Part shown: piece by piece, positions 7,337 to 27,330 of the stretch | How the letters are laid out: every line of letters begins with the position of its first letter | Position numbering within the stretch: the stretch's first letter is position 1 | From: Balneolaceae bacterium | GTDB taxonomy: Bacteria > Bacteroidota > Rhodothermia > Balneolales > Balneolaceae | Direction: 5' to 3' | DNA length: 32,600 nt | Assembly: GCA_021767245.1 (NCBI GenBank) | Contig: JAASTO010000003.1 | Coordinates: forward strand, 1 to 32,600 | Translations under genes and position numbers: made by a program | Notes under the pieces: generated by a model | The model's database searches: none | Told to the model about the DNA's origin: nothing | What the model saw: only the letters and a program-made list of their open reading frames with translations

Positions 7337-7370
7337 AAGCCCGGTCATCTATGATGATCGGGCTTTTTTT
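7337..7370 (+). terminator. Rho-independent terminator of ald
   Basis: AAGCCCGGTCATC-tat-GATGATCGGGCTT (one wobble) followed by TTTTTT. Confidence 0.88.
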
Positions 7371-7578: not shown

Positions 7579-7666
7579 TTAATCACCGTTCGTTAATCAC
7601 TAATCAAATTTTAAAGCTTCGGTTTTTCATACCCCGGAAAGACTAATTTCCCGTTTTCGCTTCCTT

Positions 7667-7690
7667 GTTCTTTTGTGCCGACAAAAGAAC
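7667..7690. repeat. Perfect 10-bp inverted repeat in intergenic region
   Basis: GTTCTTTTGT-gccg-ACAAAAGAAC. Confidence 0.7.
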
Positions 7691-7879
7691 CAAAAGCTCC
7701 CGACTGCGAAAAAAAGCTAAAGCTGACTCCATTTCACTAAAAGAAATCAATGCTCCATAATGGGGCTTGCAGGTAAGTTAAGTACCATGCGGTTTGATTT
7801 CTTTCTTAACGCTTCATTCCGTCATCTTCTTAACGCTCTTTTTTCTAAGCTCGATAGAGTATTGAATATTCCCTGGGAA

Positions 7880-8073
7880 CTTTTCAGTCTTGAGCGTAGC
7901 AGAAACTGGAAAGTAGTTGCTCAGGAAGTCTCCGACTTCCAATATGGGTAACTTATACTATTCTATTTAAAAGTTGGCCGACAGTGTGTAAGTCAGAGAC
8001 TTACCTTGCAAAGACTCTTAAGTCAGTGCTTGATAGATTTGGGATAATGGATTATAATTTTAAGTGAAGGGAT
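7880..8073. repeat. Composite palindrome repeat, copy A (p1-p2-p3-p4left; right arm of p4 decayed)
   Basis: p1 7880-7913 CTTTTCAGTCT...AAACTGGAAAG with GCGTAGC inside; p2 7924-7940 GGAAGTC-TCC-GACTTCC; p3 7988-8004 GTAAGTC-AGA-GACTTAC; p4 left arm CTCTTAAGTC 8015-8024. Same order and orientation as copies B and D about 18 kb away. Confidence 0.85.
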
Positions 8074-8214
8074 GGGGTGGCACATTTTGATCCATCACCC
8101 GGCTCTGGTAATATCAGATGGTGTTCTGGAAATAAACAGAGCCGAATGATGGAGTTAAAGTTTTCCTTTCGATTAACTGTAATTTTGATTGTCCTGGGAA
8201 ATACTTGTTTAAAC

Positions 8215-25721: not shown

Positions 25722-25739
25722 TGTCAGCTTACATAAGAT

Positions 25740-25943
25740 CTTTTCAGTCTTGAGCGAAGCGGAGACTGAAAAGTTCATACTTAGGAAGTCACTGACTTCC
25801 AATACGGGCTTTGGGTTTGCTTTTGATACAAATCTATAATGCAAGTCAGAGACTTGCTAGAGTTGAGCTCTTAAGTCAGCGCTCGGTAGGTTTTGAATAT
25901 AGAATAATATTATTGAGGCTCGCTTTAAGACTTAAGAGATCTA
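25740..25943. repeat. Composite palindrome repeat, copy B (p1-p2-p3-p4, complete)
   Basis: p1 25740-25773 CTTTTCAGTCT-tgagcgaagcgg-AGACTGAAAAG; p2 25784-25800 GGAAGTC-ACT-GACTTCC; p3 25841-25857 GCAAGTC-AGA-GACTTGC; p4 25868-25938 CTCTTAAGTC...GACTTAAGAG. Confidence 0.92.
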
Positions 25944-25977: not shown

Positions 25978-26529
25978 TCAAATCAATAACTCATCAATTT
26001 CCAACAGCCCGGTTTTATCGATATACCATTGAGCACTACTGTATGGATAATCTTGTGGTCTTTTGCAGAAACCAGCCTTTACAGGATTGTAATGAGTGTA
26101 TTTCATTTTCTGAGAATAGAATAAATTGTTTTTGATTTCCATAGGCCGATTATCCTGACGCCAGAACTGGTACTTGGTGTTATTTGAGTTTTTACTTCCA
26201 GCTTTTCTGAACATCCACAGCATCCATTTTCTTCTGCTTTCTTTTGTATTTGATTGGAGGTCATTCAAAATTGAATAGGCAGTAAATTTTTTAAAATCTC
26301 GTAGTATATCCGAAAGATTAAAACCTTCTCTTGCACTAACAATCAAATGGATGTGATTAGACATTAAACACCAACCGTGAATTTTTAAGCCTTTGTTGGC
26401 TTGGCAGTATGCTAAACTGCCTACAATGATATCTTTATAGGCTTTTCTTGTAAACACATCAATCCAATCTACTACTGCAAAAGTGATGAAATGAGCTTGC
26501 TGGTGATTATATATTTTAAACCCCGTCAT
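25978..26529 (-). CDS. REP-associated tyrosine transposase (RAYT-like, Y1_Tnp / HUH family)
   Basis: 183 aa; HUH motif MSNHIHLIV and C-terminal KYTHYNPVKAGFCKRPQDYPYSSA (catalytic Tyr region and YSSA typical of RAYTs). No TnpB partner; flanked on both sides by palindromic repeats. Confidence 0.9.
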   Translation of the reverse strand: MTGFKIYNHQQAHFITFAVVDWIDVFTRKAYKDIIVGSLAYCQANKGLKIHGWCLMSNHIHLIVSAREGFNLSDILRDFKKFTAYSILNDLQSNTKESRRKWMLWMFRKAGSKNSNNTKYQFWRQDNRPMEIKNNLFYSQKMKYTHYNPVKAGFCKRPQDYPYSSAQWYIDKTGLLEIDELLI

Positions 26530-26555: not shown

Positions 26556-26662
26556 AATGCAAGTCAGAGACTTGCTAAAGATCTACTCTTAAGTCAGCGC
26601 TCGGTAGGTTTTTGGATATCGAATAAAACTTTTTTGGCTCGCTGTAAGACTTAAGAGATCTA
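26556..26662. repeat. Composite palindrome repeat, copy C (p3-p4 only)
   Basis: p3 26559-26575 GCAAGTC-AGA-GACTTGC; p4 26586-26657 CTCTTAAGTC...GACTTAAGAG. Direct repeat of the p3-p4 half of copy B (25837-25943). Confidence 0.92.
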
Positions 26663-26711
26663 TGACCTATACATTTTTTTGTTTTCTATTCCTTTACAAC
26701 CACAATAGGAT

Positions 26712-26917
26712 CTTTTCAGTCTTGAGCGAAGCGGAGACTGAAAAGTTTATGCTCAGGAAGTCTCAGACTTCCAATACGCGCTTTGGTTTTTCTTAAGTCC
26801 AATTGCTGTTTGCCTTAATTCAAGTCACTGACTTGCTAGAAAGGAACTCTTAAGTCAGCGCTCGGTAGACACTGGATATCAGATAAGACTTTTTTGGCTC
26901 GCTTTAAGACTTAAGAG
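26712..26917. repeat. Composite palindrome repeat, copy D (p1-p2-p3-p4, complete)
   Basis: p1 26712-26745 identical to copy B; p2 26756-26772 GGAAGTC-TCA-GACTTCC; p3 26821-26835 CAAGTC-ACT-GACTTG; p4 26847-26917 CTCTTAAGTC...GACTTAAGAG. Confidence 0.92.
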
Positions 26918-27330
26918 ATAGAAGAGAAGTAGAAAGATATTTTCGGGCTCTTCATATCATCTTTATATACGAAAAAATAAGAGTGGCTAAGCATTTCGTA
27001 AGATCATTTTTGGGACTGATGAATAATGTAAAACTACCTGAGAAAATTCTTTTCTTATCTGCCATTTCACATGATCCTACCTTTAAATCGTATATACAGG
27101 GCGAATTTTCTTAACAAAACAGTAACGATTTGTTGAAACCAAATAAATTGCTTTATACGGCATAAAAGGGCTTTTTTCGGTTAGAAAAGCGGTTCCATGC
27201 CTCTTGTATATACATTGTAAATATTGATATTCCGCGGGGCTGATGGTAATGTCGCAGGAGCTGAGATGATCACAGTTGTATAGGTGTCCTCTCAGGTACA
27301 AATGAACGAACACGACTAAAATAATCAGAT

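Follow-up and report, generated by a model that had tools for sequence, protein, structure and literature searches.

The intergenic region between ald and lolC in the stretch of DNA analysed here (the window, all 32,600 nt of it, from contig JAASTO010000003.1 of Balneolaceae bacterium; copy positions follow its numbering) harbours an ancient, partly eroded relic of a small dispersed palindromic element. We consider it very probable that this relic, copy A, belongs in decayed form to a REPIN-like family of non-autonomous mobile elements in Gracilimonas and that a REP-associated tyrosine transposase (RAYT) formerly mobilised this family in the form of single-stranded DNA. The gene for a predicted RAYT lies 18 kb away, between copies B and C of the same repeat, and its product is the likely mobiliser of the family (Table 1); that the enzyme binds, cuts and moves the units is what we infer. 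The general REP/REPIN class is known, and the two-hairpin family with a GAT foot is a new member of it with an unusual form.

Table 1 Repeat copies and the RAYT gene in the window
Feature	Position	Strand	Details	Evidence
Copy A, left unit	7877..7940	+	foot GAAC, H1 (p1), linker, H2 (p2)	direct reading; covariance model E 2.4e-15 (copy A among the model's input)
p1, H1 hairpin of copy A	7880-7913		CTTTTCAGTCTTGAGCGTAGCAGAAACTGGAAAG	direct reading
p2, H2 hairpin of copy A	7924-7940		GGAAGTC-TCC-GACTTCC	direct reading
p3, H2 of the inverted unit of copy A	7988..8004	-	GTAAGTC-AGA-GACTTAC; T-A for C-G	
p4, remnant H1 of the inverted unit of copy A	8015..8071	-		alignment, direct reading
Copy B, complete composite	25737..25941	+	unit 25737-25800 (+), inverted unit 25841-25941 (-)	inverted unit, p1+p2 covariance model E 1.7e-5
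Predicted RAYT gene	25978..26529	-	183 aa, HUH H59/H61, Tyr144	NF047646, fold, catalytic residues
Copy C, single inverted-type unit (p3-p4)	26559..26660	-	adjoins RAYT start	covariance model E 9.5e-7
Copy D, complete composite	26709..26920	+	unit 26709-26772 (+), inverted unit about 26820-26920 (-)	

A preliminary description of this region had read copy A as a composite of four palindromes, p1 to p3 and the left arm of p4, in the same order as in copies B and D. Direct reading and a repeat-finding tool confirm that order over positions 7877-8071, but not the notion of four separate palindromes. A covariance model built on p1 and p2 alone, from 28 copies, also produces matches of about 100 nt to p3 and p4 on the other strand (in the genus genome G003, such inverted matches reach E 2.3e-12), so that p3 corresponds to p2 in inverted orientation, and p4 to p1, likewise inverted but with a longer loop. 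The "four palindromes" are thus one two-hairpin unit present twice in inverted orientation, as in REPINs, a relationship that the earlier reading overlooked together with the RAYT among copies B, C and D.

The 104 units that we extracted share a common plan: a GAT foot, a long hairpin (H1), a linker of about 10 nt and a short hairpin (H2). Among 101 units, the foot reads GATC in 70 and GATA in 12, and the canonical 5' GT[AG]G foot of REPs was not found. H1 comprises 10 pairs and has either a short loop or one of ~45 nt, with the anchored arms 14 nt apart in 54 units and 47-52 nt apart in 34; the linker is mostly 10 nt long and the H2 loop 3-4 nt. Two inverted units with their feet pointing outward form a composite of 150-230 nt that includes additional inner hairpins, and in some species the central hairpin is common to both units. 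Outside the foot, a CC dinucleotide is placed exactly at -5/-4 in 31 of the 101 units, and CC occurs within -8..-3 in 48 units vs 21 at -20..-15 (P 1e-4); this C-rich stretch could conceivably be the cutting site. A few units are also present in other genera of Balneolaceae (genomes G014 and G016; loci L199, L200, L201), with H1 shortened to GATCTYTTAAGTCTGTGACTTAAGAG and its loop almost gone.

The preliminary description had further proposed that stem structure, and not just sequence, is conserved in the repeat. We examined 102 oriented units from across the genus, with the arms anchored by sequence and the 3' arms exchanged only within each genome, a procedure that keeps relatedness at the genome level, though units from the same genome are themselves related. 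Watson-Crick pairing exceeded that in the shuffles at pairs 1, 3, 6 and 10 of H1 and likewise at pairs -1 and -2 of H2 (P <0.0002 to 0.004 across the H1 and H2 pairs, values that are inexact because the units share ancestry and the test involved no tree), and controls with slid H2 columns gave a null result. The extra Watson-Crick types at variable pairs imply at least about 11 two-sided switches. For p1 alone, the alignment tool found 95.3% pairing and a covariation score that none of the 500 shuffles or the slides reached. H2 is unpaired in covariance model R1 (MAFFT misplaced the 3- and 4-nt loops) and was counted from the sequence anchors. Given that pairing exceeded that in the shuffles, compensation no greater than expected, the outcome that would speak against conserved stems, was not observed within these limits, and the proposal gains support.

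Template-switch repair, however, can also generate compensatory pairs in palindromic DNA in the absence of selection (PMC8794818), and some of those counted here could have been produced in this way. An explanation built entirely on such processes would treat the repeats as passive: recombination and replication template switching (quasipalindrome correction) would spread the palindromes and keep them similar, with the compensatory changes resulting from repair that copies one arm onto the other rather than from selection on the folded form. In its favour, template switching can create and mend stems in one event (PMC8794818), and there are signs of exchange among copies B, C and D, as the copy at position B in the sister species Gracilimonas amylolytica (G002; phylum Balneolota) is a mix of D-like and C-like parts. 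This explanation leaves unaccounted for, however, the constant foot and linker, the inverted layout and the flanking of RAYT genes by the units, as well as the occurrence of distinct stems beside each RAYT, and we consider it unlikely. The history of p3 in copy A also points the other way. In its second pair, copy A has T-A, whereas copies B, C and D have C-G (GTAAGTC/GACTTAC in A vs GCAAGTC/GACTTGC in B and C), a change that keeps the hairpin, as the preliminary description had noted; the orthologue of copy A in G. amylolytica reads GTAAGTC/GACTTGC, that is, carries the T-G intermediate expected from two single steps. In copy D, the first pair of p3 is a T/C mismatch.

The right arm of p4, previously described as missing or degenerate, has indeed suffered a deletion of about 14 nt after about position 8064, with TGAAGGG remaining at 8065-8071, whereas the left arm is complete (8015-8024, CTCTTAAGTC). 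The orthologue in G. amylolytica retains the right arm, GACTTAAGGG, and has lost most of p1. Together with the T-G pair in the sister species, this broken arm, kept in the relative, indicates that copy A is genuinely decayed and that the compensatory change in p3 is real. Decay is also apparent in p1, where the foot is GAAC as against GATC and the stem includes a single C/A mismatch as well as one T-G pair. The similarity of copy A to the family is far above chance: the repeat tool matches copies B, C and D to 7873-7962 and 7984-8041, genome BLAST aligns it with copy B, 17,860 nt away start to start, at E 8.8e-14, and the covariance model scores it at 69.5 bits (E 2.4e-15, with copy A among the model's 28 input sequences).

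Other repeats surround copy A. Immediately past it, at 8089-8155, there is an unrelated second palindromic repeat, TCCATCACCCGGCTC...AGAGCCGAATGATGGA, with relatives in G. amylolytica at the end of contig C5 (L081) and on contig C30 (L097), and a more diverged one beside lolC in G006 (L078). An interspersed repeat, CTTGTTCTTTTGTGCCGACAAAAGAACCAAAAGCTC, occupies 7660-7720, and a sequence resembling it comes after H1 units in G008 (L122), which makes this intergenic region a repeat-rich spot. In G. amylolytica, the region of copy A is split over contigs C37 (L095) and the end of C5 (L081), which have about 60 identical bases in common, and the C37 part is followed downstream by an IS110-like transposase, judged by reading; the repeat may have mediated a rearrangement or duplication.

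The product of the gene at 25978-26529 is, by its sequence and modelled structure, a predicted RAYT. It scores 101.1 bits with the NCBIfam RAYT model NF047646 (cut-off 80), H59, H61 and Y144 are invariant in an alignment of 20 relatives, and the top PDB match of its AF2 model (pLDDT 93) is 4er8, the TnpA_REP-REP hairpin complex (E 2.3e-9). The HUH/Y1 fold and the subterminal hairpins are reminiscent of IS200/IS605 elements (IS608, ISDra2), but the score with the IS200 model NF033573 is 27.1 bits, below the cut-off of 55, no tnpB was seen beside the RAYT gene, and this gene does not occur in multiple near-identical copies. PADLOC yielded only a weak partial anti-phage match (E 3e-4, 17.5 bits). 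The orthologous RAYT of G. amylolytica (L082, G002:C5 about 88157) lacks the first 64 residues; copies C and D were not found beside it, and a deletion seems to have removed them.

A second RAYT is encoded in the source genome (G000:C220:7338-7886, L062; 67% identity), with a counterpart in G. amylolytica (G002:C8, L045). Units with the same layout, namely GATC foot, H1, AGC linker and H2, flank this paralogue, but their stems are entirely different, CTTTGAAGCA/TGCTTCAAAG and GGAGGC/GCCTCC. Such units are present only in the two genomes that encode the paralogous RAYT and only beside that gene, so they are not dispersed. Each RAYT accompanied by its own stems is the pattern expected of an enzyme and its cognate substrate.

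The earlier view of the repeat as a dispersed family holds across the genus. Counting matches at E<=0.01 among 150 candidates scored per genome, the covariance model yields a low count of 9 for the draft genome analysed here and counts of 6-49 for six further Gracilimonas genomes, with the highest counts in G003 (49) and G004 (33). Identical 65-nt units occupy different sites in G004, and a more recent spread is suggested in G003 and G004. The orthologous RAYT is flanked by units in all five genomes examined, G003, G004, G006 and G008 included. Strong repeats were detected in 6 of 6 genomes with a RAYT of at least 65% identity vs 1 of 5 without (Fisher P 0.015 for 11 genus genomes, with relatedness not placed on a tree), and RAYT subgroup and strong repeats agree in 10 of the 11, the exception being G010, which has units and no close RAYT. 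At each of the four positions compared (A, B, C1 and C272), G. amylolytica has a copy in the corresponding place, so movement looks old in the source lineage. The ald/lolC gap of G008 is repeat-free and only 72 nt long, its flanks being too diverged to define exact insertion ends; no case was found in which one species carries an insertion that its sister lacks at a site that is otherwise identical, and a search of the available literature retrieved no paper on REPs in Gracilimonas.

The units lie almost exclusively between genes (29 of the 30 tested loci are outside long ORFs), often directly behind them, with copy B starting about 16 nt past the 3' end of the upstream gene, and they are structured, as would also be the case for terminators or 3' stabilising hairpins of mRNAs whose likeness to REPs is secondary. 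We find this very unlikely, given that the model search locates units in both orientations and that Rfam gives no match at the gathering threshold or E<=1, which also led us to reject a riboswitch or non-coding RNA. Copy A was likewise rejected as the ald terminator: the actual candidate, a terminator-like site, lies 500 nt ahead of it, at 7337-7365, and none was called in copy A itself.

By analogy with TnpA_REP (PMC8266576), the RAYT, as an HUH/Y1 nuclease, would recognise the unit as a folded single strand, cut adjacent to its foot, copy or move it, and join it at new extragenic sites without a target-site duplication. The extragenic placement agrees with such mobilisation, as does the lack of target-site duplications among 16 composites with outward feet (observed sum 7 vs 7.9 after shuffling). 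The latter result also counts against what we regard as the least credible alternative, MITEs of a DDE transposase bounded by terminal inverted repeats GATCTYTT...AARAGATC: composites do end in inverted repeats, but these are whole foldback hairpins, and the gene that they flank encodes a predicted HUH enzyme.

The features of the RAYT fit the REPtrons of subclass 2.6 (RAYT/TnpAY1, mostly Bacteroidetes, Bertels group 5; Quentin et al. 2018, PMC6006769), as judged against Table 1 and the text of that paper. The likeness extends to the HuH-Y spacing of about 82 residues, the NHIH motif, the downstream SS motif, and atypical structures that lack GT[AG]G, flank the gene and have copies elsewhere in the genome. 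The Y-x-H-x-N-P signature is present, with YTHYNP slightly off: WQ and YIH[QN]NP of the table correspond to WRQ and YTHYNP in the RAYT of the window, whose orthologues come closer. The host here belongs to Balneolota, and neither the two-hairpin unit nor the inverted dimer appears in the sections consulted of the published description of subclass 2.6. Pseudomonas REPINs (Bertels and Rainey 2011, PMC3116915) similarly consist of two inverted REPs dispersed as one unit with a cognate RAYT, but differ from the composites described here in length, in the additional inner hairpins of the latter and in the RAYT group. The REP/BIME of E. coli, with TnpA_REP (subclass 2.2; PDB 4er8), share extragenic imperfect palindromes, inverted pairs and a RAYT of the same fold, whereas the Gracilimonas family has a GAT rather than a GTAG foot, two hairpins per unit and tens of copies. 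Copy numbers of REPs and REPINs often exceed 100 per genome, compared with the at most 49 matches counted here under the above threshold. In the broad sense, the family displays the features of REPs/REPINs: dispersed, extragenic palindromes in inverted pairs and an adjoining cognate RAYT.

This atypical anatomy makes the family of moderate interest as a REP/REPIN with a Bacteroidetes-type RAYT. Published tests of REP recognition concern groups 2 and 3, of the GTAG type (PMC8266576). It is possible, although on balance doubtful, that the Gracilimonas enzymes use a recognition code unlike that of characterised REPs, with a GAT foot, two obligatory hairpins, a cutting site at the CC (-5/-4) and stems that switch with the RAYT subgroup. 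The family offers an anatomically resolved representative of a poorly described, GTAG-less subclass of the Bacteroidetes type, and the two RAYT paralogues encoded in a single genome, whose units follow a shared plan but differ in their stems, form a natural swap pair for asking whether the foot, H1 or H2 is read.
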